Source: Rosistilla ulvae
GTDB lineage: Bacteria; Planctomycetota; Planctomycetia; Pirellulales; Pirellulaceae
Reading direction: 5' to 3'
Length of the DNA: 64,000 bases
NCBI RefSeq assembly: GCF_007741475.1
Contig: NZ_CP036261.1
Span: 5,209,798 to 5,273,797, forward strand
This document shows, one piece after another, positions 43,709-64,000 of the stretch. The first letter of the stretch is position 1. Every line of letters begins with the position of its first letter. The notes under the pieces are model-generated. The model was not told the DNA's origin. It searched no databases and worked only from the letters and a program-made list of their open reading frames with translations. The position numbers and the translations under genes are program-made.

Positions 43709-43714
43709 GCCGGA

Positions 43715-44734: not shown

Positions 44735-44862
44735 CGCCTATCGAGATCGAGAATACGGGGCCCCCAAAGCACATCGGTTGCGATATGATACCACAACGGG
44801 AATCGCAGCGTCGCGACAAATGAGCGGTGTAGCAACGCTTGCTGTGAGAGAGTCTTCCGCTT

Positions 44863-44874
44863 AGTCTATAGACT
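44863..44874. promoter_or_regulatory. Palindrome, candidate GntR operator
   Basis: AGTCTATAGACT is a perfect 12-bp palindrome, 79 bp before the GntR start and about 130 bp before the divergent isomerase gene. FCD-type GntR regulators bind short palindromes of this size, so self-control and control of the divergent gene are plausible. Confidence 0.45.
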
Positions 44875-44952
44875 TGCGGCAATCGATACTCCGCAATGGC
44901 TTCGCTGTGGTCTTCTACTCATCCTCTAATTCTGTCGCCAGAGAATCTACCG

Positions 44953-45633: not shown

Positions 45634-45636
45634 ACC

Positions 45637-48026: not shown

Positions 48027-48146
48027 GGAGTATTCCTAGTTTCAATCAGCCGCGACGGCGGCTGGTGTTGCAGCAGGGGGCTAGCCCCGGCAGATTATTC
48101 AAATCGAGCATCGGCTGGAGTCTCGCAGTTCCAAGCCGTGTCGTCT

Positions 48147-48899
48147 TTACCGCCCCAGTTTAATACGATCACCCAACATGTTGGCAAGATCGGGTTCGTC
48201 GTAAATTTTCTGAGCCGTTTTTTCGACGTCGTATTCGATCCGCCGAAACTCGATCTTCATCGATTCGTCGTCCAAGACGACGTAGCAGGAGCGGCGATCT
48301 TCATCGCGCGGCTGTCCAACGCTGCCCACGTTGACCATCATCTTCTCGGGACCCAGCTGGTATTCGTAATTGCATTCCTCGGGCGTCAGGAACTCACACT
48401 GCGTCGTGAACACACCTGGAAGGTGGGTGTGGCCTTGGAAGCTGTAATGTTCGATACGAGCGAACAAGATTTCCATCTTCCGCTGATCGTAGACATATTC
48501 GGGGAAGACGTATTCGTTGGTTGGATCGCGGCTGCTGCCGTGGACGAACATAAACGGTTCGGCTTTGTGTAGACGGGGCAGGGTGCCAAGAAAATCCCAG
48601 CGGCGATTCGATTCGCTGGCCGGGCCGCTGTCCAATTTGTCGCGCGTCCAATAAATCGCTTGCAGGGCGACGGGATTGAAGCCATCGGGATCGAACAGCG
48701 CCGCCTGATCGTGGTTGCCCAGGATCGTAATGGCACAGCGTTTCATCACGAGATCCAGGCATTCGCATGGATTGGGACCGTAGCCGATAATGTCCCCTAA
48801 ACAGACAATTTCGCTGATGTCTTGCGAATCGATATCGGCAAGGACAGCGCGCAGGGCTTCCAGATTTCCATGGATATCGCTAATCAGAGCTCGCTTCAC
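48147..48899 (-). CDS. Calcineurin-like metallophosphoesterase, copy 2
   Basis: Paralog of the downstream gene, 250 residues, with the same motif set: [35 protein letters not shown]. The C-terminus [19 protein letters not shown] is nearly that of copy 1. All metal-binding residues are kept in both copies, so neither is obviously dead. The pair is 120 bp apart, with a small GC-rich palindrome (GGGGCTAGCCCC) between. Divergent from tsaB. Different substrates or expression may explain retention of both. Confidence 0.88.
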
Positions 48900-49047
48900 G
48901 CTAATGCACCTCGTGGATGGAACGCTTGTTCAAGGGGAAACTATAGCCCGTCGTTGTAGAGAGTTCCACCACATGCTATTCCTCTTGTCCCTCGTTACGG
49001 GAAACAAGCTATTGTAAATTCTACGTTTTTCCGGGCACAATCCCACA

Positions 49048-49842
49048 ATGATCTGGCATTTGGCAATTGAAACAAGCGGGCGTGAAGCCTCGATCGCCTT
49101 GTTACAAGGCAATCACCTGGTCCGCGAACTGAATTTGACGGTCGAGCAGCGCACAACGGCCAGCTTTGCCCCCGCGATTCAGACCTTACTGCAGTCGATT
49201 CCGGCCGGCGATCCGCCGCTGGGCCTGGTCAGTGTCTCGGTGGGACCGGGATCGTTCACCGGGCTGCGGATCGGAGTGACCGCGGCAAAAACGCTCTGTT
49301 TTGCTTTGAAAGCCGACCTTGTCGCCGTCGATTCGCTGGCGATCATCTGCCAGCAGCAGCGGGAAGCTTGGCTGGCGAACCCCGAGCAATTCCCCGCGGC
49401 GGCGCGACGGATCGCCGTCTGCACCAACGCTTATCGTGGCCAGTTGTTCATCCGCACCGAGCCCCTGGACGCACAAATCGACCCGGCCGATACCGCGACT
49501 GAAATTGTCGACCGAAGCCGATGGGATGATTTACAGGCGGCGATGGACATTTACGCGGTAGGACGCCGCGTTGCGGAACCGCTGCCGAATCGGGACGCTT
49601 CGGCAACGGAACCTTCCGCCGCCAGCGAGGTCGAATATGGGACGACCTTTGATGGCTGGCCGCGGCCGATGGCGGCGACGCTTGGACGGCTCGCTTGGAA
49701 GATGTATCAATCAGGCAAGCGGGACGATTACTGGTCGTTGGTGCCGCGTTACCTTCGTAAGAGTGCTGCCGAAGAAATGGCGGACGAAAAAGACAATCGC
49801 CAAAATTCGGCTGGCACGTATTCGCAAGCAAAGAAAATTTGA
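49048..49842 (+). CDS. tsaB: tRNA threonylcarbamoyladenosine biosynthesis protein TsaB
   Basis: Component of the t6A37 tRNA modification machinery, partner of TsaD and TsaE; 264 residues. The ASKHA-type N-terminus LAIETSGREASIALL and the conserved VGPGSFTGLRIGVTAAKTL (about 67-85) identify the family. The C-terminal extension of about 100 residues beyond the core is longer than in E. coli TsaB (231 residues) and looks loosely structured. No other t6A gene is adjacent. The NagB/PIG-L gene follows 48 bp after the stop and might be cotranscribed. Confidence 0.9.
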   Translation: MIWHLAIETSGREASIALLQGNHLVRELNLTVEQRTTASFAPAIQTLLQSIPAGDPPLGLVSVSVGPGSFTGLRIGVTAAKTLCFALKADLVAVDSLAIICQQQREAWLANPEQFPAAARRIAVCTNAYRGQLFIRTEPLDAQIDPADTATEIVDRSRWDDLQAAMDIYAVGRRVAEPLPNRDASATEPSAASEVEYGTTFDGWPRPMAATLGRLAWKMYQSGKRDDYWSLVPRYLRKSAAEEMADEKDNRQNSAGTYSQAKKI

Positions 49843-49890
49843 CACAATTGATGCGGCTCGATTGTCCCCTTTCCACCCAAGGCCGATCCC

Positions 49891-51792
49891 TTGCTCGCAT
49901 CCAGCTCCAGTTCTACCGCTCCCGACCACAGCCGCTTTGTCGACGGAACCGCCGTCACCACGCTCGCCTTTGATCGCAGTGGCGATCTCGCCGCGTACGC
50001 CGCCGCCGCGATCGCTGAATCGATTCAATCGCACAATCAAGCTGGCAAGCAGACCGTCTTGGGATTGGTGACCGGTTCGACCCCCACAGGCACGTACCGC
50101 GAATTGATCCGGTTGCACCGCGAGCAAAAGCTCGACTTCTCCAACGTCAAGATCTATCTGTTGGGCGAATACATCGGGCTGAATCCCGAGAGTCCGCAGA
50201 GCCATCTGACTTCGATTCGCCACTATCTGACCGACCACGTTAACATCCCCGCGGAAAACGTGTTGGTCCCCGACACGACCGTCAGCGTCGACCGGATCGA
50301 ATCGGTCTGCAACGCTTACGAACAAGCGATTCAGGACGACGGCGGATTGGACATCGTCGTCTGTGGCATCGGTCGCAACGGGCACGTCGTGTTCAACGAG
50401 CCTTTCAGCATTCGCAACAGCCATACGCGGATGTGTACGCTCGATCCGGTCACCCGCCGTGCCGCCGCGAGCGACTTCTTCGGCGAGGAGTACGTTCCGA
50501 CCCACGCCGTCACCGCTGGCTTGGAAACGATCCTCAACGCTCGCAAGATCCTTTGCCTGGCGTTGGGAGAACACAAGGCCGGGCTGGTCCGCGAAGCGTT
50601 TGAAGGGGGAATCACCGATCGCGTTCCCGCCAGCTTCCTGCAAGAACATCCCAACCTCGAACTGTTGCTGGACCAACCCGCCGCGGGGATGCTGACCGGC
50701 ATCGCGACCCCGTGGTTGTTGGGCAATATGTCGTGGGACGAACCGATGATCAAACGGGCGGTCCTGTGGCTCAGCGAAGTCGCCGGCAAGGCGCTGCTAA
50801 AACTGGACGACAACGATTTCCGCGTCAACGACCTGCATCAACTGCTGCGTCACTACGGTCCCGCCGAACGATTGGCTCATCGCGTCTTTCGGATGATGAT
50901 GGACACGATCGATTACCATCCGGCAGGTCGCGACGATCAGGTCTGCTTGTGCTTCAGCCCCCATCCCGACGACGACGTGATCAGCATGGGCGGCACTTTG
51001 ATCCGCTTGGTCGAAGACGGCCATCAGACGCATGTCGCTTATATGACCAGCGGCAACATCGCCGTCTTCGATCACGACGCGCTCCGCGTCGCCGATCTGG
51101 TGACCGAATACAACCGGCTGTTCAACATCGATCTTGATCGGTCGGCGGAAGTTGAAAAACAGGTCCGCCGCGGTCTCGATTCCAAGCAACCGGGGCAGCC
51201 CGATTGCGAGGAGATCCAGCGAATCAAAGGCCTGATCCGGTGGAGCGAAGCTCGTGCGGCGGCTGTCAAAGCGGGCTGCCAAGAAGAGAACTTGCACTTC
51301 TTGGACCTCCCCTTCTACCGCACCGGAACGGTCACCAAAAATCCGGTCGGCGAAGACGACGTGCAGATCATTTACGATCTGTTGCTGAAAGTGAAACCAC
51401 ACGTCGTCTTTGTCGCTGGCGATCTGGCCGACCCTCACGGCACGCACCGCGTTTGCGCCGAAGCGATCTTCCTGGCGTTGGGACGATTGAAGGAAAAGAA
51501 TCAACCGGTTCCCGAAGTGCTGCTGTACCGCGGGGCTTGGCAGGAATACGCGTTGCACGAGATCGAGATCGCGGTACCGTTGAGTCCCGACGATTTGGAG
51601 CTGAAGCGCAAAGCGATCTTCATGCACGAGAGCCAGAAGGACGAAGCCTTGTTCCCCGGCAGCGATCCACGCGAATTCTGGCAGCGTGCCGAGGACCGCA
51701 ACCGCGGCACCGCCGACGCTTACAACCAATGTGGGCTGCCAGAATATTACGCGTTGGAAGCCTTCACGCGCTGGAACGGCGAACCGATCTAA
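49891..51792 (+). CDS. nagB: Glucosamine-6-phosphate deaminase fused to PIG-L/LmbE deacetylase
   Basis: Fusion protein of 633 residues. The N-terminal NagB domain (about 1-290) converts glucosamine-6-phosphate to fructose-6-phosphate and ammonia; it shows VTGSTPTGTYRELIRLH, the ring-opening site IVVCGIGRNGHVVFNEP and KILCLALGEHKAG. The C-terminal half (about 345-633) is a PIG-L/LmbE-like deacetylase with the zinc motif SPHPDDDVISMGGT and the later DPHGTHRVCAEA. Such fusions occur in Bacteroidetes and planctomycetes and may combine deacetylation with deamination of amino sugars. The start is the TTG at 49891 with AAGG before it; no ATG fits. Convergent with the RND gene (4-bp overlap). Confidence 0.88.
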   Translation: MLASSSSSTAPDHSRFVDGTAVTTLAFDRSGDLAAYAAAAIAESIQSHNQAGKQTVLGLVTGSTPTGTYRELIRLHREQKLDFSNVKIYLLGEYIGLNPESPQSHLTSIRHYLTDHVNIPAENVLVPDTTVSVDRIESVCNAYEQAIQDDGGLDIVVCGIGRNGHVVFNEPFSIRNSHTRMCTLDPVTRRAAASDFFGEEYVPTHAVTAGLETILNARKILCLALGEHKAGLVREAFEGGITDRVPASFLQEHPNLELLLDQPAAGMLTGIATPWLLGNMSWDEPMIKRAVLWLSEVAGKALLKLDDNDFRVNDLHQLLRHYGPAERLAHRVFRMMMDTIDYHPAGRDDQVCLCFSPHPDDDVISMGGTLIRLVEDGHQTHVAYMTSGNIAVFDHDALRVADLVTEYNRLFNIDLDRSAEVEKQVRRGLDSKQPGQPDCEEIQRIKGLIRWSEARAAAVKAGCQEENLHFLDLPFYRTGTVTKNPVGEDDVQIIYDLLLKVKPHVVFVAGDLADPHGTHRVCAEAIFLALGRLKEKNQPVPEVLLYRGAWQEYALHEIEIAVPLSPDDLELKRKAIFMHESQKDEALFPGSDPREFWQRAEDRNRGTADAYNQCGLPEYYALEAFTRWNGEPI

Positions 51793-54044
51793 CGCGTTGG
51801 CACCATCGCGCGGCGAGGCCAGCGAAGCGGAGCCCGCTTGCGAAATGCAACCATCAGCAGCGCAGGCAACAGAATCAGATCGCCGATCAACGCGGCGATC
51901 ATCGTGATGCAACAGAGGGCTGAGAACAACTTGATCGCGGGCATTGGATTCAACAGCATCGATCCAAATCCAGCGACCAAGATCCCAGTCGTCAGCAGCA
52001 GCGCTGGCCCGACGCGGAGCATCGTGATGCGAACCGATTCGGCGACCGATCGTGTCGGTCTGCGATCCTGTTGAAAGTGCGTGATCACATGGATCGTGTC
52101 GTCGACCGCCAGGCCAAGGCACAGCGAAAAGGTCAGCGCCGAAGTGATCTGCAGCGGATAGCCCAAGATCGATAATCCGGCGGCGGTGATCAACAGCGGC
52201 AACATGTTGGGGATGAAGCTGATCAGTCCAATCAACAGCGATCGAAACTGGATCGACATCACTGCGAAGATCAAGACGCTGGCCGCCGATAGGCTGCGAG
52301 CCAAGTCGCCGATTACAGCTCGCATGTTTTGCGCCGCAGCGACGACGGTGCCGGTGACTTCGATTTCGAAATCGGGATGTGTTGCCATGATCGGTTGCAG
52401 TTCGGCATCCAACCGCAACAGACGCTCCTCCAACGCGATCGCTCCATCGTTGGGAACCCGCGTGCTGACTAACATCTGCCGCTGAACCGGGTTAAAAATT
52501 CGATCGACAGCGCCACGACGTCCTTCGATGAATTGATACTTCTCCTCCCATGAGCGCCCCGGGAATCCGGCCAACGTGTTGTAGATCGACGCTGGCGGGG
52601 CGAAGCCCGCCGTGGTCTTCACGGCTTTGGAAACCCGCCCGGCAACGACGTTGATCTCCGACGCCGGGAACGACAACGTCTCGGGCCAGCGGATGATGAT
52701 CAGAACCGGCAGGGCGCCGCCAAGCTCCGCATCGGCAAGCCGCAGCGCCTCGTTAGTCTCATCCGCCTCGGGGATCGCTTCGGTCCAGCGGATGTCGACT
52801 TTCTGATCGATGGCAAACGGCAACATCGCAAAAAAGGCAACGATTCCCAGCAGCGAAACGCGGATCGGAACCCGCAGCGGCATCCGCGAAACTCCCGCCA
52901 TCATCCCTTCCATCCACGGGACGCTGCTCCCGCGGCGGCTGTGCAAATGCGATTCGGGCAGGAAGCGAATCGCCAACGGCAGCACGCAAAGATCGGCGAT
53001 CAAGGCCGCCGCTGCGCCGATCCCGGCCCATAAACCAAACTCAGCGACCGCATCCAACCGCGACAATCGCAGCGAACCAAAACCGATCATCGTCGTCAGC
53101 GAAGTCAATAGACACGCCGGGCCGACTCGCAACAACGACGCATAGATCGCGCGGCGTCGCGTATGCCCGGCCGCCAAGCGTCGATTCGCTGCCAACAGCA
53201 GATGGATCGCGTCGGTCAGGCCGATCACGAAGATCAGCGAAGGGAGCGAACTTGTCAGACCGCCAACGGCGACTCCGCACCAGCCCATCAAGCCAAACGT
53301 CCAGATCGATCCGAGCGTCGGCCCCAACATGCAGACGCCAACCGGAGCCAGGCCACGGAACAGCAGCAGCGACGCGGTCATGCCGGCGATCATGGCAAAG
53401 GCCGATCCGTAAAACAGCGATCCTTGGATCGAAGACAACACGCCGTCGCGAATCGCCGGATGCCCCGCTTTCCAAACGCGCAGACCGCTGTCGGTTTCAA
53501 AGCCTTCGATCACGGTGTCGATCGGTGCGATCGCCGATCCGATCTGCGACTGCGTTAGATCGCTTCCTTTTAACAGCACCCAGAAGACCATCAGTTCGCC
53601 GCTGTCGCTGATCAATTGACCCGCGGCCGACGGATGCGATGTCAGGTCGTGGCGAATCTTTTCCGCGTCCCAGCCCGGCGGAATCGCTTCGGGCAGCACC
53701 GGCAACATCGCGCTGCCGCGGCGCAAATCGAAGACGCTTGCGACTCCGGCGACATCTTCAAGCGATTGCAATTGATCGCGAAGGCCGCGCAAGCGATCGA
53801 TCGATCGCGGTTCTAACAGACGATCCCCTTCGATCATCAACAACAGATCGTTGTCATCGGGACCGAAGACCTCGTGCAGATCGCTCAGCTGATGACTGGA
53901 GCGGTCGTTGGACGAAAAGACAGCGTTGGGCGAGGTGTCGAAGCGAAGTCGCAGCAGGCCCATGCCACAGCCGACGGTCACCGCCAGCACGATGCACAAG
54001 AAGAGGATCGGCTGACCGACAGTCAATCGCGCCCAGATTCGCAT
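51789..54044 (-). CDS. RND-superfamily exporter (MMPL/SSD type)
   Basis: Inner membrane protein of 751 residues with two sets of about six transmembrane helices, each after one N-terminal helix and a large periplasmic domain, as in the hydrophobe/amphiphile and MMPL branches of RND pumps. The first set includes LPSLIFVIGLTDAIHLLLAANRRL and the second ALTFSLCLGLAVDDTIHVITHFQQD, both with the conserved Asp of the helix-4 proton path. No membrane fusion or outer membrane partner is adjacent. The substrate may be lipid-like. It converges on the NagB/PIG-L gene with a 4-bp overlap. Confidence 0.85.
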   Translation of the reverse strand: MRIWARLTVGQPILFLCIVLAVTVGCGMGLLRLRFDTSPNAVFSSNDRSSHQLSDLHEVFGPDDNDLLLMIEGDRLLEPRSIDRLRGLRDQLQSLEDVAGVASVFDLRRGSAMLPVLPEAIPPGWDAEKIRHDLTSHPSAAGQLISDSGELMVFWVLLKGSDLTQSQIGSAIAPIDTVIEGFETDSGLRVWKAGHPAIRDGVLSSIQGSLFYGSAFAMIAGMTASLLLFRGLAPVGVCMLGPTLGSIWTFGLMGWCGVAVGGLTSSLPSLIFVIGLTDAIHLLLAANRRLAAGHTRRRAIYASLLRVGPACLLTSLTTMIGFGSLRLSRLDAVAEFGLWAGIGAAAALIADLCVLPLAIRFLPESHLHSRRGSSVPWMEGMMAGVSRMPLRVPIRVSLLGIVAFFAMLPFAIDQKVDIRWTEAIPEADETNEALRLADAELGGALPVLIIIRWPETLSFPASEINVVAGRVSKAVKTTAGFAPPASIYNTLAGFPGRSWEEKYQFIEGRRGAVDRIFNPVQRQMLVSTRVPNDGAIALEERLLRLDAELQPIMATHPDFEIEVTGTVVAAAQNMRAVIGDLARSLSAASVLIFAVMSIQFRSLLIGLISFIPNMLPLLITAAGLSILGYPLQITSALTFSLCLGLAVDDTIHVITHFQQDRRPTRSVAESVRITMLRVGPALLLTTGILVAGFGSMLLNPMPAIKLFSALCCITMIAALIGDLILLPALLMVAFRKRAPLRWPRRAMVPTR

Positions 54045-54091
54045 CCGTCGTGTTCTCCCTAACCGACTTCAAGCTTCGCCAAACGCAGGTG

Positions 54092-54484
54092 CTACAGGTC
54101 GGTTTGGTGGCGAGATTCGGGAGTCGAGACATCCAGAGAACCATCCGAACCGCGGTCGACTCGCACCCTCGGCGTGTCGACTTCGACGTCGCCATCGTGA
54201 TTCGCTTTGACCTTCACGTTAGGCGTCTTCACATCGACGCCGCGTCCCGATTCGTGATTGACTTCGACGTCACCGGCTTTTACGTCGACACGCTGCCCCG
54301 GTTTCACGTTGACATCGACGCCCGGCGCATCGACCTGAACGCCGTTCTCCGCATCGTAAGAGAAACCACCTCCAGGCCATTTGATATCGATGCCATCGGA
54401 TTTCTCCGACTTTTGCGACGACTGGTCATCGCAACCGGTAAGCAAAACAGCGAGACCGATCAATGCGACAGAGAAAGCTTTCAT
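54092..54484 (-). CDS. Lipoprotein with repetitive beta-type sequence
   Basis: Exported lipoprotein of 130 residues. Signal peptide and lipobox: AFSVALIGLAVLLTGC. The mature part is highly repetitive in pattern, with DV/VDV at regular intervals and alternating V-x-V runs (DAPGVDVNVKPGQRVDVKAG, VEVNHESGRGVDVKTP), suggesting a beta-solenoid or extended beta sheet, rich in acidic residues. No known domain. The ATG at 54484 is the only start that gives the signal peptide. It is upstream of, and codirectional with, the RND gene (47-bp gap) and may be its partner or only a neighbour. Confidence 0.72.
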   Translation of the reverse strand: MKAFSVALIGLAVLLTGCDDQSSQKSEKSDGIDIKWPGGGFSYDAENGVQVDAPGVDVNVKPGQRVDVKAGDVEVNHESGRGVDVKTPNVKVKANHDGDVEVDTPRVRVDRGSDGSLDVSTPESRHQTDL

Positions 54485-54617
54485 GGCAGTTGCCGAATGG
54501 GAGGTGAATGGGCGTAAACGTAAATTAGCCGACGAATTCAACGTACCGGATTGGGGTGCGGCTGAACAGATCGGATCAGCCCAGGATCGCAGCCCCAATC
54601 ACCCCGCAACGCTCGCT

Positions 54618-56528
54618 CTATTCGCTCTTCAGCCCAAAGCTGGCCATGTGTAGACCGCTGGTATCGTCGTAGGCGAACGAACCGGCCGGGGCCATATATT
54701 GAGTGAAAACCGAAAGCGGCGGCAGGTCGTTGTCCTCCAATGCTTGGTGGAACATCTTGGCGACCGGATTGTTTTCGGCCAGTCGACGCAGCCCCTCACG
54801 CATCGGCGGTGCCTTCAGCATTTCGTAAACAGCCCGGAACGATTCTTCGGGACGGGTGAAAGAGAACATGAACGGCGGGCGACCGTCCAATTGACCCGAC
54901 AGTTCCCCGGCGATCAAATCGTATTCGATCAGATTCGAGATCGCGCCCGGTCCGTTCCCCGTTTCAGTTTTGATCGCCTGTTCCAGGAACTGGCGACTGT
55001 CGGTGTAAACCAAATGATCTCCCACGATCGCAATGTGCGGCTGCCCGCTACGCATGTATTCTTGCATCGCCTCGGGAATCTTCGCCTCGCGTCCAGCATA
55101 CAGCGTCACTCCGGCAAACTTCTCCTCATTCCAGTCGGGCAGATTGGCCATCGCTTTGCCGAGCGTCTCCTCTGCGGCGACAGGATCTTTCAATTGAGCG
55201 CCAAACAAGTTGACTTGGCTTCCAAATCGGGCTGGCGTTTCAATCCATCGCGACGTGGTGAAGCGTCCGGTCAATTGAGTGATCAGGTCGGTCTGCAGAT
55301 CGACTTTCAGCTGGCGGTTCGCTTTCCCAAAGATATCTTCGTTAAAGCTGCCTGCACCACGGATCTGATCGTAGACACGTCGCGCACCATCGAGTGACTT
55401 TTCGACTTCCCAGTTGAGCGCCATGAATCCAGTAGCATCGGCGGGGACAAAGCTAGGCGGTCCGACGGGGCCCTGTTGCGGCCGTACGACCGACAGCACT
55501 CCGCCGCGTCGCGGATCCAACAACAGATGCACGTGCGAGATCGTTTCGAAGCGTTTTCCCCCGGTGAAAATACTGCCGCCGATCCCCTTGATTCCCTCGA
55601 GCCCCAGGTTCTGGATGATGAACAGGACCATACCCGCCCCGCCGCCGGCAGCCGTCGCTTTGTCGAGGATTCCATACGGATCGGCGTAGAAGGTCAGCTG
55701 AGGACGCGTCTCTTCCGTTCCTACGCAGTGGCTCATCACAGTCGTAAAGTTCGAGTTGCCCGATAGGCGTTCGTCGTTGAGCGATCCCTTCCAACGCATC
55801 AATATGTCGCGGACCGAATCGAGATCGCTGCCGATGACCAAAGTGTCCTCGTGGATTAAGTAGTGCATCGATTGCGGGCGATTGCCGCGCTGCAGCGAAA
55901 CGATCTCGACGTCCTGTTCGGTTGCCACGGTCCGGCGGAATCCATTTTTTGTCATCTGCCCTTCAGCGGTCTCCAACAATCGACGCAGCACGGGCGTTTG
56001 GTCTCCCGATTCGATGATCGCAACGACGCCAAAGGCGAGTCGCGTCGTCAGCCGCTGTTCCCGGCTTTTTTGCTGCAAACGCTCGCGGATCGCTTCGGGC
56101 GACTCATCGTCGGCCCCAGGCTTGGTTTCCGTCGCATCGCCGTCGGCCGGCGTCTGTTTCATCCGCTGAATCCGCGCCTCGGCATCGCTCGGCACCAACG
56201 CGACCGAAAGCTCTCCCTGGGAGATCGCGAGCAATTCGTCCAACGTCACGCCAAGCTGCTCGCTCAGATTGGCGAACAAATCCTGAGCCCCTGTATAGAC
56301 TTGGGATACCAACGGACGGACCTGCGGATCGGCAGCCATTCGCCCGGCGGATGATTCTCGCAAGATCTGGCGGTAAGCGGCGGTATCGTCGATCCGGAAA
56401 TAGGCCAGAGAATCGCTCGGCAGCAACCGTGGGGCGGTCGGCCGCGGTTCGGACTGGCCGAGCGAAACCGATACGGTCAATAGCGATAGCAGGCATGCGG
56501 ATATTCCGCAGCGGATGGAGAAAAGCAT
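54618..56528 (-). CDS. Large secreted protein, unknown function
   Basis: Exported protein of 636 residues with a signal peptide (about 1-24: CGISACLLSLLTVSVSLGQ). The body has no catalytic motif I can name. The opening PRLLPSDSLAYFRIDDTAAYRQILRES and later GELSVALVP, TLVIGSDLDSVRDIL resemble the DUF3352-like proteins whose members begin with a low-potential strand and score for lipid-binding-like folds; this is a guess. The same kind of protein is seen in many Pirellulaceae. It precedes the lipoprotein and RND genes on the same strand with a 130-bp gap. The longer frame upstream of 56528 lacks a signal peptide. Confidence 0.6.
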   Translation of the reverse strand: MLFSIRCGISACLLSLLTVSVSLGQSEPRPTAPRLLPSDSLAYFRIDDTAAYRQILRESSAGRMAADPQVRPLVSQVYTGAQDLFANLSEQLGVTLDELLAISQGELSVALVPSDAEARIQRMKQTPADGDATETKPGADDESPEAIRERLQQKSREQRLTTRLAFGVVAIIESGDQTPVLRRLLETAEGQMTKNGFRRTVATEQDVEIVSLQRGNRPQSMHYLIHEDTLVIGSDLDSVRDILMRWKGSLNDERLSGNSNFTTVMSHCVGTEETRPQLTFYADPYGILDKATAAGGGAGMVLFIIQNLGLEGIKGIGGSIFTGGKRFETISHVHLLLDPRRGGVLSVVRPQQGPVGPPSFVPADATGFMALNWEVEKSLDGARRVYDQIRGAGSFNEDIFGKANRQLKVDLQTDLITQLTGRFTTSRWIETPARFGSQVNLFGAQLKDPVAAEETLGKAMANLPDWNEEKFAGVTLYAGREAKIPEAMQEYMRSGQPHIAIVGDHLVYTDSRQFLEQAIKTETGNGPGAISNLIEYDLIAGELSGQLDGRPPFMFSFTRPEESFRAVYEMLKAPPMREGLRRLAENNPVAKMFHQALEDNDLPPLSVFTQYMAPAGSFAYDDTSGLHMASFGLKSE

Positions 56529-56780
56529 TCGTAGGCCACCTGTTGGAAGATTTGAGTTACCGGGTCGAGCGGACTCAATTTGGGGGGAGTGCTCGCGTGA
56601 ATCCATTGTATTCGTGGGTTTATTGCCGCACTTGGCCGACACAAGAATAATTTTTGGCATCTTTGCGATAATCGATACAATCGGTTACTGAGGTCGCAAG
56701 TTTGTGCGGCATGTTCGCTACAGCCGAAATCATGAGTACGATGGTTGTATAAGTTTCAAACCGCATTTCGAGCCAACCCG

Positions 56781-57434
56781 ATGAAGCATCTGATCACCAT
56801 CAGCATCCTGCTGACAGCACCTGGATTGGTGGCGAGCGTCCACGCTCAAGGGAACACCGCCAATTCAGGAGGAAACGCGGCCACCACGGGGCAAGCCGCC
56901 AACGGCGAATTGGCGACGATCGACGTCGACACGGCGTTTGCCGGGGGCGTGCAGCGCGATGGCACGATCGGTGCCTCCGGAAGTACCGTCCCGGCGTTCA
57001 GCACTCAGGGCCAAGCGGCTGCCGGCAGCACCGGAGCGCGATCGACCGCGTTGGGTGGCGGTGCGATGGGAGGAGCCTTTGGCGGGGCGTTCAATCAATT
57101 GTTCGGCGCCGGGGCTCAAGGTCAGTCGCAAGCGAACCAGAAAACCTTTCGCACGCGTCTCCGCGGCGACATCGAAGTTACCCGGCCGAGTGTGGCCTCG
57201 CGGCAATCGACGATTCAAAATCGCTTGGTCAATCTGCCCGTCGCTGCTCGCATGACCGAGGTCCGTTTGAAAATGAACGACCGCACCGCCGTGCTATCGG
57301 GAAGCGTCAAGACGGAGAAAGATCGTCGCATGGCAGAGATGCTGATGCGTCTGGAACCGGGCGTGTCGAAAGTCGACAACCGCTTGATCGTCGAAGGCTT
57401 GGGCGAACTGATTCCTCCCGGTTCGGCTGAGTAG
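56781..57434 (+). CDS. Secreted BON-domain protein
   Basis: Exported protein of 217 residues. After a signal peptide (about 1-23) and a Gly/Ala/Gln-rich spacer (about 24-125) comes a BON-like domain at the C-terminus: RQSTIQNRLVNLP, then MTEVRLKMNDRTAVLSGSVKTEKDRRMAEMLMRLEPGVSKVDNRLIVE. BON domains bind membranes or phospholipids and are found in envelope stress proteins such as OsmY. The start ATG at 56781 opens the signal peptide. The mtfA gene follows 11 bp after the stop, pointing to cotranscription. Confidence 0.8.
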   Translation: MKHLITISILLTAPGLVASVHAQGNTANSGGNAATTGQAANGELATIDVDTAFAGGVQRDGTIGASGSTVPAFSTQGQAAAGSTGARSTALGGGAMGGAFGGAFNQLFGAGAQGQSQANQKTFRTRLRGDIEVTRPSVASRQSTIQNRLVNLPVAARMTEVRLKMNDRTAVLSGSVKTEKDRRMAEMLMRLEPGVSKVDNRLIVEGLGELIPPGSAE

Positions 57435-57445
57435 GCGACGCTGCG

Positions 57446-58225
57446 ATGATTTTCAGCTGGATTGCACGGCGGCGGCGCGACCGCATTCGTCGGCAACCGA
57501 TGCGCAGCGATTGGTCGCAGATCATCGATCGCAACGTAGCTTATGTGCATCGGTTGAACCGCGACGAGCGAGCCAAGCTCGAATCGGACGCTCTTGTTTT
57601 CATCGCCGAAAAGAACTGGGAAGGCTGTCAGGGCCTTACCATCAGCGATGAGATCCGCGTCACGATCGCAGCCCAGATCAGCCTGCTGTGCCTCGGCTTC
57701 AACGATCAATTCTTCGACATGGTTCAATCGATCCTCGTCTATCCCGACGTCTATACGGGCAAGAGTCACACGTCGCTCGGATCGGGAGTCTTGATGGAAG
57801 GCGTCTCGCATCGCGAGGGAGAGGCTTGGTATCGCGGTCCAGTCATCCTTTCCTGGGCCGATGTGATGGAGGATGGCGTCCGCGACAACGATGGCAACAA
57901 TCTGGTGCTGCATGAATTTGCACATCAACTGGATATGCTCAACGGACGCGTCGTCGATGGAACGCCGCCACTGGAAACACAAGCTCAGTTCGACCGTTGG
58001 CAAGCGATCATCGACCGCGAGTACGAACAATTGGTATCCGATTGCCAATACGGACGCTCTCACGTGTTCGACAGCTACGGCGCCGAACATATAAGCGAAT
58101 TCTTCGCCGTCGCCACCGAAACCTTCTTCGAACGCCCGCTATCGTTCCGCGCCCGACATCCGGAACTGTACGAGATCTTCTCGCAGTACTATCGCCAAAA
58201 TCCCGCCGCGCGTTTCGACGGCTAG
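57446..58225 (+). CDS. mtfA: MtfA-like zinc metallopeptidase
   Basis: Protein of 259 residues of the MtfA (Mlc titration factor A) peptidase family. The zinc motif is HEFAHQLD (156-163), with a further Glu in HISEFFAVATETFFERP downstream as expected. E. coli MtfA is of the same length and binds the glucose repressor Mlc; whether a similar partner exists here is not known. N-terminal basic stretch MIFSWIARRRRDRIRR has no clear signal peptide. It lies 11 bp behind the BON gene. Immediately after it the accessory region begins. Confidence 0.9.
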   Translation: MIFSWIARRRRDRIRRQPMRSDWSQIIDRNVAYVHRLNRDERAKLESDALVFIAEKNWEGCQGLTISDEIRVTIAAQISLLCLGFNDQFFDMVQSILVYPDVYTGKSHTSLGSGVLMEGVSHREGEAWYRGPVILSWADVMEDGVRDNDGNNLVLHEFAHQLDMLNGRVVDGTPPLETQAQFDRWQAIIDREYEQLVSDCQYGRSHVFDSYGAEHISEFFAVATETFFERPLSFRARHPELYEIFSQYYRQNPAARFDG

Positions 58226-58399
58226 ATCGCTCTCTCCGGCACCGAGTATTCCGTCGCCTTAATGGGAACAGGTTCGATCCGCAGGTTCGCACGACGGGAA
58301 TCGGCTCTTCAAGAATTCGCGTCGTCGCGTCGCTGACCTGCTTGATTCGCGTTATCCGATTTGGGATCAGACGATTCAGGGATAGCCACACTTTGCCCA

Positions 58400-58430
58400 T
58401 CATTTTTTGGATGTCCCCTTCCGGATCTGC
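58400..58430. repeat. Partial copy of the flanking repeat
   Basis: CATTTTTTGGATGTCCCCTT followed by CCGGATCTGC matches the last ~30 bases of the longer repeat at 58494-58613 and 63155-63275. Confidence 0.6.
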
Positions 58431-58493
58431 ACCTGTTCCGGATCGATCACCTCACCCCGCAATTGCCGAGCCATCACAAAGCCCTCCAGTGGT

Positions 58494-58613
58494 CAACCGA
58501 AAGCAAAAGAAGATACCGCGACGTAGGCGTTTCTCGCAGTGCCGTATTTATGTAATTCAGGGCATCCGCCCCTGCAACGGCAATCATTTTGTGGTTGTCC
58601 CCTTCGGGACTTC
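58494..58613. repeat. Left direct repeat flanking the defence-like block
   Basis: About 120 bp beginning CAACCGAAAGCAAAAGAA and ending CATTTTGTGG...CGGGACTTC. By eye it agrees with 63155-63275 at roughly four fifths of positions, in the same orientation. The segment GTCCCCTTCGGGAC inside forms a small hairpin. Origin unknown: decayed mobile-element end, recombination site or dispersed repeat. Confidence 0.75.
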
Positions 58614-58675
58614 CCAAATTTGCCTGTGCCCAAAATCACAAATTTCAATTCAATCAATTTGTCTCTGCGACAAAG

Positions 58676-59599
58676 CTAGAACCGGGAAAGCTGATTGAAA
58701 CACTCGTGTTCGTTGAGGTGTTCGTCGACAAAGAAACGCATGTCCTCATGTGTTGCTCTGCCAACGAACGATTTCAGGTGCGAAAAGGTCATAATCTCCA
58801 AGTGGCCGAATCGGAATTCGGGACCAGCGATTGAAATGCCGGATGGTGTGTAGTCGACGAAAAACGACGTTCGATCCACTGGCGCCGGAGGTTGCGTCTG
58901 AACACCGCTGTCATCGAAGTCGACGACGAAGAGCCGATCGTCCGGAACCACCAAGATCGGGACGATCCAATTGATGACGATCGCTTTTTCATCGGAGTAG
59001 CCGTTCACTACTTCGGGCAGCATTGCGGTTGCGGACTGCAAAGCCTGTGTCCAACGCGGATAAATTTCCTTGTCTCCGCCTCTGATGTTTCCGTTGCGGT
59101 CCTTGGTAATGCACTCGGCCGACTTGCCCACAAATTCTCCAGACGAATACATGCTGCGGCTCGGCTGAAATTCCAACGTGCAAGCCTTAGGAAACTGACC
59201 TGTCTCGCTCGAGAGAATTGGCAATGCTTGTTCATGCTGGATTGCTTCCCGGACGACGTTTCGATCACCGCAAGTTCTAGCGACAACACAGTGTCCGGCT
59301 TCATACGCGGACCGTGGCGAACGGTAAACCAGCATGGGCGCGAACTCACTCAGGCACTTGCACTCAATCGCCATGCGAAGCCTGACAGGAAGGTAGCCAT
59401 CGACAAGGTTAAGATCGGCGGTTAAGTCAAACTGACGTGGCTTGCGCTCGATTGGGTCGTCGTACGTTCCACCATGGCGGTAGCGAAGTCGTTTAGCGGC
59501 AAAGAGCTTACGTACTTGCATCTCGAAGGCAAACGAGGAATCCTTTTCAAGAAACTTGACGATGTCGGCCTGCGATGTCGGCGTGATTTCTCGTGTCAT
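58676..59599 (-). CDS. PD-(D/E)XK-like nuclease of the accessory block
   Basis: Protein of 307 residues with a candidate PD-(D/E)XK active site in its first 85 residues: Glu26 in the first helix (FAFEMQVRKLF), Asp58 in RKPRQFDLTADL and Glu79-Cys80-Lys81 in LRMAIECKCLSEF. This is the spacing of restriction-endonuclease-like folds and suggests DNA cleavage. The rest (IVINWIVPILVVPDDRLFVVDFDD and beyond) is not recognised. The gene is the last of a minus-strand run behind the lipase, E2 and CD-NTase fragment, with an 86-bp gap, so it may be part of the same defence operon, or an independent nuclease. No methyltransferase is nearby. Confidence 0.55.
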   Translation of the reverse strand: MTREITPTSQADIVKFLEKDSSFAFEMQVRKLFAAKRLRYRHGGTYDDPIERKPRQFDLTADLNLVDGYLPVRLRMAIECKCLSEFAPMLVYRSPRSAYEAGHCVVARTCGDRNVVREAIQHEQALPILSSETGQFPKACTLEFQPSRSMYSSGEFVGKSAECITKDRNGNIRGGDKEIYPRWTQALQSATAMLPEVVNGYSDEKAIVINWIVPILVVPDDRLFVVDFDDSGVQTQPPAPVDRTSFFVDYTPSGISIAGPEFRFGHLEIMTFSHLKSFVGRATHEDMRFFVDEHLNEHECFNQLSRF

Positions 59600-59685
59600 T
59601 TGGATTGCTGTTGGTCAAGTAGTTTTGAGAAGCGGAATCGGGCTTTGATTGCGAGAAGCCTGAACACGCCTATGCAATGTTGTTT

Positions 59686-60801
59686 TCATTTTTTCAAGAG
59701 CCCCAAGACCTGTTCGATATAGAAAACCATCGAATGGTCGGCGATGTAGGGTGAACTGCCTTGCAATAGCACTTCGCCGCGGTCGTTTACTTGCGGGGCG
59801 GGTTGCTGTTGATCCGTCACCCATTGCTGTAGCTCGACGTCGCTCGCCGGAGTGATCTCCGCAATGTCGGCTGGCTCTTCGGTATCACTGGGGGCTCCGA
59901 ACGCGACACGCTTTCGAGGCGATCGCTTCAATCCATCGGGCGTGAACCAAACCAAACGACCGCTGGGGCGGTAACTCGGTGGGATCCGTGCAACGAAGTC
60001 GTCGTTATTGACGAACCTCGCATATCGCCCAATCAGTTGATCGTCGATGTGGTCGGCTAGCGACTGGCGTGCGATCATCGGTTGCCCGAAAGTCATCACA
60101 CCAGCAACTTGCCGACCATTTGCATCGAAATCATGGGCGCAGCAAAGGGCAAGAGCACCGCCGAGGCTGTGACCGGTCACCCACAAATGCTGCACGTCGT
60201 GACCTCTCAGTGCCGTCTCGATTTGCCGCTTCAGCGTTTGGTATCGCGACCAGAATCCGGAGTGGACGTCGCCATCGGCGATGCGTGTTGGTGCTCGCGA
60301 AATGTTGGTTAGCCAATCGCCGGTTTGGTTCTCGCTGCCACGAAATGCGATGACGGCAACATCGTCTTGAATGGCCACGTAGCCAAGCATCGTGTTCGAC
60401 TCGACCGTCTCCACGGTATCGAAACCTAATCCACGCAGCGATCGACTCGCATCAACCGGCGTCTCGTAGGCGACGTCGCTGATCTCCGCCAGGACTTCGG
60501 AAGCTGGCCAATTGGCTGTCCCTTCGCTGTCCCACCACTGCCGCAGTTTCTCAACATCGGAGTCGGCGATGACGGGCGGCACGGGATCAATGTCCCACGG
60601 ATCGTCGTCGATGACGTCGATCCCACCTGGTGTCGAGTTAGCGACGATCGCTCCTGCGACCAGCAACAGCCCACCCAAAAATGTAGCGAAAGCGAACCAA
60701 TTACGGGGCGACTCGCCTTTCGTCAAACGGTAGAGCCCACCGCAACCGGCAATCGAAAACAAGACCCAGATGGGCCACAGGTTTGATGTCAGAAGATTCA
60801 T
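59686..60801 (-). CDS. Membrane-anchored class-3 lipase, candidate CBASS effector
   Basis: Protein of 371 residues. Two membrane segments (about 7-24 and 35-54) anchor it; the rest is an alpha/beta-hydrolase of the Lipase_3 family. Its catalytic triad is visible: Ser212 in VTGHSLGGALALC, Asp near 268 in FVNNDDFVARIPPSYRP, and His356 in YIADHSMVFYIEQVL. The strand-helix segment VAVIAFRGSENQTGDWLTN is the usual start of the lipase core. It should hydrolyse membrane lipids. It lies 37 bp behind the E2-like gene on the same strand. Phospholipases are known CBASS effectors (CapV, patatin type); a class-3 lipase with membrane helices in this place would be unusual. Confidence 0.75.
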   Translation of the reverse strand: MNLLTSNLWPIWVLFSIAGCGGLYRLTKGESPRNWFAFATFLGGLLLVAGAIVANSTPGGIDVIDDDPWDIDPVPPVIADSDVEKLRQWWDSEGTANWPASEVLAEISDVAYETPVDASRSLRGLGFDTVETVESNTMLGYVAIQDDVAVIAFRGSENQTGDWLTNISRAPTRIADGDVHSGFWSRYQTLKRQIETALRGHDVQHLWVTGHSLGGALALCCAHDFDANGRQVAGVMTFGQPMIARQSLADHIDDQLIGRYARFVNNDDFVARIPPSYRPSGRLVWFTPDGLKRSPRKRVAFGAPSDTEEPADIAEITPASDVELQQWVTDQQQPAPQVNDRGEVLLQGSSPYIADHSMVFYIEQVLGLLKK

Positions 60802-60838
60802 AATGCAACTCGATGGCTAAAAACAGAAGGAAAAGGCT

Positions 60839-61309
60839 TCATCTTGGATACAGAGCACACGCCTTGCTTCGTGTACGTTCGCATTCGGCCTCGTCCGGTT
60901 TGGGCGATCCATGGCCACTACCGCACCATTCACCGGTCCCAAGCCAAGTTTCGTAAAAGTAGAGCCATTCACTTGCCCACGGGATGATCGTGTCAGCCAT
61001 GAGCATTCCACGGTCCCACTCACCGGTTCCTGGCAAGTAGAGGCACAACGAACCGTCGCCGTACCGGTGGGGAATTGGATCGTCGGCGGGTTGAATCAAA
61101 TCAGGTGATCGTACAAATACCTTTGGAACTCGCTCCAGCGAGTAGTGCAATCGAATGTCGTAAACATCACTCAGTGTTGTCGGTTGAATTTGCATATCCC
61201 AACGAAGCCGGTTCCGCTTGACGCTGCCGACTCCATCAGGGAATTGACGCTTCAGCGCGCCCCACTGGGTCACTGCCGTGACGTTATTTGTTGCGTTTAG
61301 AGTCGCCAT
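60839..61309 (-). CDS. Stand-alone prokaryotic E2-like protein of the CBASS type
   Basis: Protein of 156 residues matching bacterial E2-like (ubiquitin-conjugating-fold) proteins of short type II CBASS. Signature: IPHRYGDGSLCLYLPGTGEW with Cys89 at the catalytic position, followed by ADTIIPWASEWLYFYETWLGTGEW. In CBASS these proteins conjugate or prime the CD-NTase through its C-terminus. It is a separate protein here, not fused to an E1. Its start overlaps the end of the CD-NTase fragment gene by 26 bp in another frame, implying coupling. No E1 or JAB peptidase gene is nearby, as expected for the short type. Recognition is by eye. Confidence 0.75.
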   Translation of the reverse strand: MATLNATNNVTAVTQWGALKRQFPDGVGSVKRNRLRWDMQIQPTTLSDVYDIRLHYSLERVPKVFVRSPDLIQPADDPIPHRYGDGSLCLYLPGTGEWDRGMLMADTIIPWASEWLYFYETWLGTGEWCGSGHGSPKPDEAECERTRSKACALYPR

Positions 61310-61691
61310 AGAACGTGTGTCCTCGAACGGGGGTCGTGTTCAGCATCGGTGCCGTGCCGGTGATGAGCGTTGCTGTGGAAGACGTCACCGCAAGTTTTCC
61401 GGACGACGAAGCCCGTTGAACGTCATAGCCGAGTGACTTCGCCGATGCTTCGACAACCTTTCGGCCCAAGGATTCCCCGAGAAGGTCGAGCACCCGATGA
61501 ATCCCGCCGCCCTTGAGCGCTTCCTCCAACTCAACACCAACTTGCTTAAGCCAATCGCGAAAATTAGTTTCACGATCGGGGTAGTCTTCGGCCTGCCAGC
61601 GGTCGGCAAAGTTCTCTGACGGATTGATTGGGTTCTCGACCCAGGCGACGCATTGGCCGTTAACCTTACGTTCTTTGATGTGGTCTGGCAT
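61284..61691 (-). pseudogene. C-terminal fragment of a CBASS CD-NTase
   Basis: Open frame of 135 residues whose sequence (VAWVENPINPSENFADRW, a helical middle, and the tail TTPVRGHTFYGD) matches the C-terminal third of SMODS/CD-NTase nucleotidyltransferases that make cyclic oligonucleotide signals. The catalytic N-terminal two thirds, with GSxxxxT and the DxD metal site, are missing: an in-frame TAA lies 18 bp before the ATG at 61691, and the sequence beyond belongs to a transposase on the other strand. The fragment keeps the C-terminus that E2 enzymes act on. It is either a broken gene or an unusual stand-alone target; breakage is more likely. Confidence 0.65.
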
Positions 61692-61812
61692 CCGGTGAAC
61701 CAGACCTGTTTAGGACAGGCATCTTTCATTGCCCACAGGCTGCATTGCAAATACGATTGCTTTATTGGGGGCGGAGCTTTTCAGACGGGGCGAATTGCGG
61801 AGGGCTTTTCCG

Positions 61813-62886
61813 ATGACTAAGGCTCGCAAGTATCTCGTCGATCCAGAGGTGACGCGGTGGTATCACTGCATCTCCCGCTGCGTGCGGCAAGCGTTTCTAT
61901 TCCACGACAAAGAGCAACCCGATCGACCTGACTGGCGACAGTGGATCGAGGATCGGCTGCAATTGCTCGATACGAACTTCGCCATTTCTGTGGGTGGATT
62001 TTCGGTCATGGACAATCATCTGCACGTGCTCTGCAGGCTCGATCCCGAGGATGCGGATCGCTGGAGTCCCCAAGAAGTCATGCGGCGATGGATCGCAGTC
62101 TACCCGCCCAAAAAGCTCAAGTCGGATGACGAAAAGGTTGTCCGGCAATGGGTCGAGAACCTGGCAAGGGACGAGCGCCGAGTGGCTCTGCTGCGCGATC
62201 GGCTCAAAAACCTCGGTTGGTTCATGAAGTCGCTCAAAGAACCGCTGGCAAGGCTGGCCAACAAAGCCGATGGCTGCCGTGGCACCTTTTGGGAATCGCG
62301 TTACAAGAGCATCGCGATCTTGGATGACGACGCGCTGCTGGCCACGAGTACCTACATCGATCTCAACCCGCTGGCGGCGGGACTCACGTCAACTCCAGAG
62401 CAGGGTTTGTACACATCGATACACCAACGTGTCGAGCATGTTTGCCAGAAGTGCGAAAAAGAAATCGAGCGGTTAAAGCCGGCCCGCCGGGGAAGTGTCG
62501 CCGCGAGCGTTGCCGCCGGCGCAATGGAGCAAGATCATTGGCTCGTCCCGTTCGAAGACCGGCGAGCCGCACAGCGCGCGGGGCGGGGCGAGTCGAGTTG
62601 CCGCGAGGGGATGTTGGAATCGTTTCCGCTGGGCAGCTATCTGCTATTACTAGACGCTACCGGCCGCATGTATCGCGATGGCAAAGCAAACATGGAAGCC
62701 GGAATGAAAGAAGTTTTCGAGCGACTGTCATCGACGCAAAGAGATTGGCAAGCTAAGACCGACAAGATGCTCCACAGCAAAAGTCTCCGCGGCAGCTTTT
62801 TTGCCACCAACAACGAGACCGTCGCCGCAGTCAAAACCGCAACCGGCCACCACTTCCGCAACCTATCGCCGCAGCCACCCGACTAG
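61813..62886 (+). CDS. Large RAYT-like Y1 transposase
   Basis: Protein of 357 residues of the REP-associated/Y1 HUH transposase group, in the longer form common in planctomycetes. It opens MTKARKYLVDPEVTRWYHCISRCVRQAFL; the HUH motif is MDNHLHVL (His69, His71) and the candidate nucleophile Tyr181 lies in STYIDLNPLAAG, with a fold-related GTFWESRYKSI just before. The start at 61813 has GGAGGG upstream. It is on the opposite strand to the CBASS-like genes, and its 5' region lies where the CD-NTase N-terminus should be. A short hairpin (TAGCCC...GGGCTA) is at 62884-62904, by its stop codon. Confidence 0.85.
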   Translation: MTKARKYLVDPEVTRWYHCISRCVRQAFLFHDKEQPDRPDWRQWIEDRLQLLDTNFAISVGGFSVMDNHLHVLCRLDPEDADRWSPQEVMRRWIAVYPPKKLKSDDEKVVRQWVENLARDERRVALLRDRLKNLGWFMKSLKEPLARLANKADGCRGTFWESRYKSIAILDDDALLATSTYIDLNPLAAGLTSTPEQGLYTSIHQRVEHVCQKCEKEIERLKPARRGSVAASVAAGAMEQDHWLVPFEDRRAAQRAGRGESSCREGMLESFPLGSYLLLLDATGRMYRDGKANMEAGMKEVFERLSSTQRDWQAKTDKMLHSKSLRGSFFATNNETVAAVKTATGHHFRNLSPQPPD

Positions 62887-63349
62887 CCCCCCTCCGTCGG
62901 GCTACCCCAACTGCAACATTCGACGTCACAGCGCTACCGCTAGGCAAGGCCCCCACAAATCCCATCCACCAACCAGCCCAGACCACACAAAGAGCAACGC
63001 CACACCCCACCAAAACCGCCCCTCCCAACTACGACACGCCCCCACCCCGCAACCCTCCAGCAGGAACCCCAAACACCCGCCAGAATTACTCAGCACGAAA
63101 GGAACATGCGTGTCCTTTTGCCTCCTCCCCTCTTTTGCCATCTTTTGCCCTTTTCAACCGAAAGCAAAAGAATGTACCGCGACGCCAGAGTTTCTCGCTG
63201 CGCCGTATCTACGTCATTCGAGGGTAGCGTCCCTTGCGACGGCAAGCATTTTGTGGAGGCCCCCTGCCGGACTTCATCTGCTTGATGGATTCGCGAAAAA
63301 AACTAAAGCGAGAATCAAATCTACATGGATTGCCAACGCACAAGTATCG
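62887..63349. other. A/C-skewed intergenic region
   Basis: 463 bp with no supported gene. From about 62945 to 63110 the plus strand is nearly all A and C with few G and T, a skew also present on both sides of the RAYT at 31.4 kb. The right part holds the direct repeat at 63155-63275. Confidence 0.6.
63155..63275. repeat. Right direct repeat flanking the defence-like block
   Basis: Second copy of the ~120-bp repeat, same orientation as 58494-58613; the first 18 bases (CAACCGAAAGCAAAAGAA) are identical and the following blocks (TACCGCGACG, TTTCTCGC, GCCGTAT, CATTTTGTGG) are kept. Confidence 0.75.
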
Positions 63350-64000
63350 CTACTGGTCGAGCCCTTCAAGCACTCGCCAGACGTTGCGATAGGTCATCCC
63401 TGTTTGTGTGCCGACGACTCTTTGCCAATCTTCAACTGACATTTCACGCAAAGCAGAACGTTTCACATCAATTGGTTTATCTATATCAGCTGTTCTAGAC
63501 GACGCGAAATGCATGGCCGCAGTTCGGGGAACACCTAGTAGACGATAAACGATTGCCGCGTCGGAATTTACCCCGTAGAAAACTCGAGAAGCGAGGTTCC
63601 GAAGTTCGGTTTGCCGTTCTTCAGGGAGCGAGCTTCCTGTGATTGAGAGCAATGCGCCCATTCCCCACGCTGCAGTTTGCGTCAATCGGCCAAACAAATT
63701 CCGCCCGCACTTTGTCATCGCATCCACCAAATCTCCTTCATCTTCAAGGAAGTAGCGTTTTGCGATGGACTTGACGGAATCCCCATTAACCCAGTCTTTC
63801 AGTATGTTGGCAAGACTATCGCCGTCAGGAACATCACCACCTGTTACAGCTTCAAGATTTTCACGCAACTCGGGAACTTTCAACAGAATGCCCATCATTG
63901 CCTGAAGATTCGAGTTACCCACACTAAACAACGTAGTGCCGTCCCACACATCGGAGGTCATTTTCTGTTCGCCGACTGCTTTAAGTACGGTAACGATACT
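63350..64000 (-). CDS. C-terminal part of a large protein, possibly a DEAD/DEAH helicase, cut by window edge
   Basis: The frame is open to the right edge (216 residues in view, codon-aligned at 64000), so the ATG at 63961 is probably internal. The helical C-terminal sequence, with LKDWVNGDSVKSIAKRYF, NLASRVFYGVNSDAAIVYRLLGVPR and a final MSVEDWQRVV...YRNVWRVLEGL, resembles by memory the end of long SF2 helicases found in defence islands (pattern WxxGxSIxxIAxxYF). No helicase motif is inside the window, so this is weak. It would add a helicase to a nuclease-containing accessory region. Confidence 0.4.
   Translation of the reverse strand, partial: SIVTVLKAVGEQKMTSDVWDGTTLFSVGNSNLQAMMGILLKVPELRENLEAVTGGDVPDGDSLANILKDWVNGDSVKSIAKRYFLEDEGDLVDAMTKCGRNLFGRLTQTAAWGMGALLSITGSSLPEERQTELRNLASRVFYGVNSDAAIVYRLLGVPRTAAMHFASSRTADIDKPIDVKRSALREMSVEDWQRVVGTQTGMTYRNVWRVLEGLDQ

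Follow-up and report, generated by a model that had tools for sequence, protein, structure and literature searches.

A locus in Rosistilla ulvae that still encodes the conjugating enzyme of a CBASS defense system is very probably the dead remnant of a short type II (E2-only) module, and this holds whether its missing part was lost by RAYT insertion with deletion or by replacement. The stretch of DNA analyzed (64,000 nucleotides; here called the window) covers C1:5209798-5273797 of a 7.48-Mb genome assembled as one contig. Of the module, the window has kept only the tail of a CD-NTase, an E2 gene, a lipase gene, and a gene for a 307-amino-acid (aa) protein; it has lost the genes for the HNH-SAVED effector, the HTH protein, and the M78 peptidase, together with two thirds of the CD-NTase, including its catalytic part. 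Because the synthase part is missing and searches of the genome recovered neither another CD-NTase nor a SAVED receptor, we read the locus as dead, and the best reading of the whole is the ordinary decay of an otherwise ordinary defense system.

The remnant of the CD-NTase (CdnG-like; 135 aa) lies at 61284-61691 on the minus strand, as identified by model PDLC00780 and by alignment to the intact proteins of two other genomes, G006 and G191. An earlier note on this DNA, made from the letters alone, had described a frame that begins abruptly and resembles the last third of the family. Both observations were correct: the first codon of the frame is ATG 61691, an in-frame TAA lies six codons upstream, and the frame aligns with residues 284 to 418 of the intact 418-aa CD-NTase found in the sister species G006 (133 of 135 residues identical). 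In the intact gene, the codon at ATG 61691 is an internal methionine; the TAA before it sits in inserted DNA. PADLOC oligonucleotide-cyclase models match the 135-aa frame (best, PDLC00780 at positions 268-387 of 388, 3.5e-23), with no noteworthy match to it in Pfam or NCBIfam. The conserved C-terminal HTFYGD is retained in the tail. The motifs GSFALGT (59), YDVDLV (76), and FHMDV (136) of the intact protein, which we take to be the active-site motifs of CD-NTase, all fall within the missing part; with residues 284 to 418 alone left, the locus lacks the nucleotidyltransferase active site of a working E2-only CBASS. The note had seen no catalytic remnant as far as 63350. Searching with tblastn at E≤1 extended this result to the whole window and ∼30 kb past its right edge, and the same catalytic-half query recovered the G006 gene at 100%.

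What did the locus look like before the loss? Besides our own genome, the 199-genome family sample contains two others of the genus, G006 and G072. The comparison with sister strains proposed in the earlier note revealed an uninterrupted 418-aa CD-NTase at the same chromosomal locus in G006, and the tail is therefore not a chance observation. In G006, a minus-strand operon encodes an HNH-SAVED effector (397 aa), the CD-NTase (418 aa), an E2 (156 aa), a lipase (371 aa), and a broken 307-aa gene, and the opposite strand carries an HTH protein (capH model, 2.6e-5) and an M78 peptidase that matches the capP model at 4.6e-5 and is fitted better by the RmrA model (7e-10). The G006 CD-NTase is recognized by PF18144 (SMODS) at 6.7e-8. 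Judged by its sequence, the module of G006 belongs to the E2-only CBASS systems. G191 has a homologous block that spans 6.1 kb at 87% identity; when the G191 flanks were compared with G006 DNA, no more homology was observed except 70 bp.

Window positions 38618-61702 are collinear with G006 5467519-5490595. Homology to G006 resumes at 67880 (window numbering extended past the edge), which is G006 5494222, and homology to G072 resumes earlier, at 67672. Approximately 3.6 kb of G006 sequence is absent, and ∼6.0 to 6.2 kb of other DNA stands in its stead. The inserted and the replaced stretches have no common 14-mer, and low-stringency blastn between them returned one match (64% over 114 bp, E 0.001) of part of the RAYT to part of the M78 gene, which we take as chance. 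The loss of the catalytic part was thus seen rightly in the earlier note, and the deletion proved larger, since it also took the HNH-SAVED, HTH, and M78 genes. Within the window and ∼30 kb beyond it, the G006 SAVED, HTH, and M78 proteins found no credible match (the sole match at E≤1 covered 20 HTH residues, E 0.51); in G006, these queries recovered their own genes at 100%.

The break itself falls at the end of a RAYT element. Collinear alignment and the junction sequences place it between 61702, the last base homologous to the intact G006 CD-NTase gene, and 61703, where foreign DNA begins. The element, delimited by inverted end motifs, runs from 61703 to 63150 on the plus strand; its right end can be placed only within 63116-63153, since a 122-bp repeat at 63154-63275 is the next recognizable feature. 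Its open frame, 61729-62886 (plus strand), encodes a RAYT-like (Y1 family) transposase, as judged from NF047646 and from the nearest copy in the same genome, and ATG 61813 is the more likely start of the gene than 61729. From ATG 61813 to ATG 61691 is 122 bp, in agreement with the opposite-strand neighbor and the spacing given in the earlier note. The protein scores 6.7e-10 and 39 bits against NCBIfam REP_Tyr_transpos (NF047646), where the model cutoff is 80, and it matches Pfam Y1_Tnp weakly, at 0.001 and below cutoff. The transposase gene lies between two inverted REP-like motifs, AGGACANGCAT, at 61712-61722 (plus) and 63106-63116 (minus), the only two in the window against 0.06 expected. 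CBASS homology stops at 61702, 10 bp outside the left motif. A small palindrome at 61705-61719 belongs to a class with two sites against 1.1 expected in our scan, which is not significant alone. By eye, similar motifs bracket the other RAYT copy of this genome and the copies of G006, and they are weakest in G072.

The element resembles known RAYT elements in having a putative Y1-like transposase gene with two inverted motifs, and a RAYT gene between two inverted REPs is a layout described in PMC2817692. Unlike elements with dispersed REPs, its end sequence is rare, and its NCBIfam match is below cutoff: the 15-bp left end TTTAGGACAGGCATC, at ≤1 mismatch, occurs at five sites in the 7.48-Mb genome, all within ∼250 bp of three RAYT copies (one site for a backward control pattern). 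REPs are therefore not abundant genome-wide; RAYTs whose REPs are gathered only near the gene are also described in PMC2817692. Six further places in the genome match the RAYT gene, one of which (3097402-3097542) adjoins another, and the closest copy, at 6101113-6102222, is 84% identical in protein. Does this repeat make the break an assembly or sequencing artifact? We give that explanation almost no credence. A copy at 84% protein identity could invite such an error, but the RAYT copies differ by ∼20% in DNA, which makes collapse unlikely, the genome is a single contig with completeness 100 and contamination 1.83, and the flanks are collinear with two relatives.

The course of events that we favor begins with the arrival of an intact module of ∼6.1 kb, like that of G006, at a hotspot bordered by the genes for an M90 peptidase and a SWIM-domain protein. 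A RAYT element would then have landed within the CD-NTase gene, and a loss of DNA to one side of the element would have removed the catalytic two thirds of the CD-NTase and the HNH-SAVED, HTH, and M78 genes. Without its synthase part, the system would make no cyclic nucleotide and, judging from the family, the E2 would be left without a working enzyme. The recency of the loss would explain why decay has so far spared the E2, lipase, and 307-aa genes. Insertion with deletion was also the scenario of the earlier note: the loss and its position at the RAYT are evident from the comparison with intact G006, and we infer the order of events and the role of the RAYT as deletion agent from the coincidence of the element's end with the breakpoint. 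The same coincidence is our reason for preferring insertion with deletion over replacement. On the other side, recent RAYT mobility lacks support, given that the nearest copy in the genome is only 84% identical in protein, and a deletion could have come first with the RAYT arriving later.

The RAYT stands at the break, as the earlier note had it, and it accounts for just the initial 1.4 kb of an unrelated stretch of ∼6 kb in which a candidate defense system lies. To its right, at 63350-64000 on the minus strand, lies the C-terminal part of a DEAD-box helicase (1,059 aa; PDC-M23B, HamB-like) whose gene continues past the window edge, as does that of a 262-aa partner. The helicase matches PDC-M23B at 1,364 bits and HamB models at 6.3e-65; it resembles HamB of Hachiman (HamAB), but PDC-M23B fits it far better. 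The partner is PDC-M23A (7.5e-97) and matched PDC-M23A models only, without a hit to HamA models at E≤0.01 or to Pfam families at E≤0.1. The PDC-M23 pair is a two-gene candidate defense system, and after it come the native flank and then the SWIM-domain gene (L002:13900-15354).

On the left, the border is an M90 metallopeptidase gene (57446-58225, plus strand; PF06167, 2.1e-80), present there in all three sampled genomes of the genus. Between the M90 and SWIM genes, our genome has the CBASS remnant and PDC-M23, G006 has the CBASS, and G072 has a 509-aa protein matching PD-Lambda-1 (4.8e-83) with an HTH protein that hits a WYL model (1.2e-8). Since each of the three species differs in content here, we regard the interval as a turnover hotspot. 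In G006, the CBASS is flanked by two 325-bp copies of the 3' end of the M90 gene, 98.5% identical (C1:5486926-5487250 and 5493827-5494151), likely a trace of the module's insertion. The window has its own repeat pair: the 122-bp copy at 63154-63275 and a second one between the M90 gene and the CBASS module at 58493-58613 (both plus strand, 80% identical). In a search of the genome, this repeat was found in these two places only, each just downstream of an operon (CBASS and PDC-M23). The pair may be an insertion trace matching the M90 duplication of G006, and the copy at 63154-63275 is possibly the 3' flank of the neighboring module.

These features bring up another route, in which homologous or illegitimate recombination replaced the front half of the CBASS with an incoming PDC-M23 block that already bore the RAYT at one edge. 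The RAYT would then be a passenger, and the locus would be dead too, so that our estimate for this route overlaps with the one for a dead remnant. We hold replacement to be possible, although not the probable course. The arrangement of RAYT, 122-bp repeat, and PDC-M23 genes in a row agrees with it, as do the different genes at the same site in three species and the repeat just downstream of both operons. Against it, the join coincides with the end of the RAYT, where it should be had the element formed the border of the event, and no other genome with the RAYT beside this M23 block was found among the 199 family genomes. In a DNA search with the RAYT plus M23 stretch, 20 of the 199 genomes matched, own included (at most two candidates scored per genome), and among the matches listed, all fell in the RAYT part, the exceptions being the native right flank (G072) and some short matches (G186 and G196). 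The helicase was found at E≤1e-80 in one other of the 199 genomes (own included), at 39% identity, with at most three candidates scored per genome.

The identity profile is consistent with recent exchange of the module. In 500-bp bins, identity to G006 is 98.5 to 99.8% over the CBASS remnant (seven bins, 58501-61702), 92.6 to 95.8% in the three bins just before it, and 91.6 to 99.0% over 39001-58500. Because nearly all of the surrounding chromosome is less similar to G006 than the remnant is, the remnant was probably exchanged recently. The argument is good and not absolute, as some earlier bins are also highly identical (48001-50500 reaches 96.6 to 99.0%).

The genes that remain are open. The E2-like gene of E2-only CBASS (60839-61309, minus strand; PDLC00864, 5.4e-46; PDB 8hsb_B E2, 7.2e-20) is intact, and its conserved Cys, within SLCLYLP, is present in nine of nine aligned E2s, so that this part of an E2-only CBASS is retained. 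The class 3 lipase gene (59686-60801, minus strand; PF01764, 1.7e-24) is likewise intact and occupies the same position in the G006 and G191 modules. The 307-aa module gene (58676-59599, minus strand) has no match at E≤1 in Pfam, PADLOC, or NCBIfam; it is open in the window and in G191, and in G006 two differences break its frame, one of 1 bp at 59193 and one in the codon at 58894.

Can these genes have been kept for a job of their own? The earlier note had offered, as its alternative to a dead system, that the E2 and tail now act elsewhere; we found no support for this. In one version, which we consider very unlikely, the tail and E2 would work jointly with the lipase and the 307-aa protein, as a free E2 substrate, a decoy, or something that inhibits an incoming CBASS. 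In a more specific one, unlikelier still, the tail would be made and joined by the E2 to a cell target, as a ubiquitin-like modifier or a decoy against incoming CBASS, and would be partnered by the lipase and the 307-aa protein. HTFYGD in the tail, the Cys in the E2, and four open frames fit such a role, and with their conserved motifs the open E2 and tail frames are compatible, as far as sequence goes, with activity. But 99% identity to G006 accounts for open frames without selection. Compared with G006, the tail, E2, and lipase show 12 differing codons, of which 6 change the amino acid and 6 are silent, with no stops; the same genes differ between G006 and G191 by 101 changing and 158 silent codons. 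G191 places five of the 12 changes, all five on the window's branch, numbers too small for a test. The start codon of the tail is an internal Met, and a scan above it returned no sigma-70-like promoter, which is a weak test in planctomycetes.

The earlier note had named conserved tail-only genes as one finding that would speak against its reading. None was found in the 41 other genomes with a PDLC00780 match, 23 from the family sample (24 of 199 genomes match at E≤0.001, own included) and 18 from a phylum sample (19 of 392 at E≤1e-6, own included; the samples partly overlap). In 33 of the 41 (21 family, 12 phylum) the match is strong, with a best E below 1e-50, and 30 of these have one uninterrupted stretch. 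The other three carry broken CD-NTases: G124 in two frames, G346 with an insert of ∼2.2 kb, and G369 with two stops. The matches in the remaining eight genomes are weak (G051 and G083; G218, G269, G303, G444, G464, and G467) and are not tails, because their matched ranges begin at profile positions 8-44. In 8 of the 33, tblastn with the E2 of G006 placed an E2 gene beside the CD-NTase (in loci of up to ∼4.2 kb, at least three of which end at contig ends). A search of genome contigs with the tail protein gave one locus, in Rhodopirellula europaea 6C. Plasmids searched with the G006 module gave one 98-bp match, with none to 58400-58640, and in plasmid relatives from Bradyrhizobium, Arthrobacter, and Sinorhizobium (3 of 33 matching records) the tail matched at the end of a gene of 388 to 399 aa. 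We see no sign of the tail-only gene as a kind of its own, and its absence from the 41 genomes counts against a retained function as well.

In G124, the E2-linked CD-NTase (L099 7967-9111) is split over two overlapping frames beside a gene that appears patatin-like by eye; the split is possibly a draft-assembly frameshift, or it is real. The G346 CD-NTase (L121 5016-8753) is cut by a 637-aa open reading frame with a DUF4277 domain, a probable transposase. It is like the window's CD-NTase in this interruption and differs in that both halves persist around the ∼2.2-kb insert. A narrow literature search returned no title on a transposon-inactivated CD-NTase remnant, and we make no wider claim about what is in print.

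The earlier note had also proposed a search for a second CD-NTase that the E2 could serve, and the outcome supports its suggestion of a dead system. PDLC00780 found only the tail in our genome at E≤0.001 (and matches in 0 of 14 control genomes), and PF18144 (SMODS) found nothing in it at E≤1, with matches in 5 of 14 controls, over cutoff in 2. A very divergent CD-NTase could escape these family models. The cyclic-nucleotide-sensing SAVED effector of a working CBASS, present in the G006 module, is likewise missing: PF18145 had no match in our genome at E≤1, against a weak control (matches in 3 of 14, over cutoff in 0).

Among the closest known systems is SmCdnG with its E2 (PDB 8hsb), presumably from Serratia. 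This E2-only CBASS likewise has a CdnG-like protein ending in TFYG[DE] (4.6e-27) and an adjoining E2 (7.2e-20), and E2-only CBASS with CdnG shares the HNH-SAVED effector with the intact G006 module. By comparison, the window is without the catalytic part and the effector and has the lipase and the 307-aa gene in addition. The best PDB match of the G006 CD-NTase is 9woo (1.3e-49), not 8hsb. Yan et al. in 2024 are said to have reported E2-only systems in which the conjugating enzyme acts on the cyclase C-terminus. For type II CBASS with Cap2, action of the conjugating enzyme on the cyclase C-terminus is described in PMC11153139. The CBASS loci of Sinorhizobium pMl2 and Bradyrhizobium pBs1S1b have an HTH or hypothetical gene with an ImmA/IrrE peptidase, a small gene in the E2 position, a full-length nucleotidyltransferase, and an HNH endonuclease or CBASS phospholipase. 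Unlike the window they are intact, with no adjacent annotated lipase_3, and the tail is ∼32 to 37% identical.

The locus offers a clean case of defense-gene turnover, in which one site has three contents and a half-deleted CBASS is broken at a RAYT end. It also carries a warning for annotation: calling the E2, or a "cyclase" from nothing more than its tail, would list a dead system among the live ones. The understanding of how CBASS works is unchanged by the remnant.

Three smaller observations concern the genes and DNA around it. A class 3 lipase lies inside the HNH-SAVED CBASS module of G006 and G191 as well as in the window and is without a match among PADLOC models; it is possibly a second effector of the module. 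By eye, ECK residues in the 307-aa protein are suggestive of a PD-(D/E)xK nuclease. Finally, short stretches between the M90 gene and the CBASS (58424-58605) match DNA near two other RAYT-like genes (67 bp at 90% and 66 bp at 80%), and further REP-like repeats may be scattered around this intergenic region.
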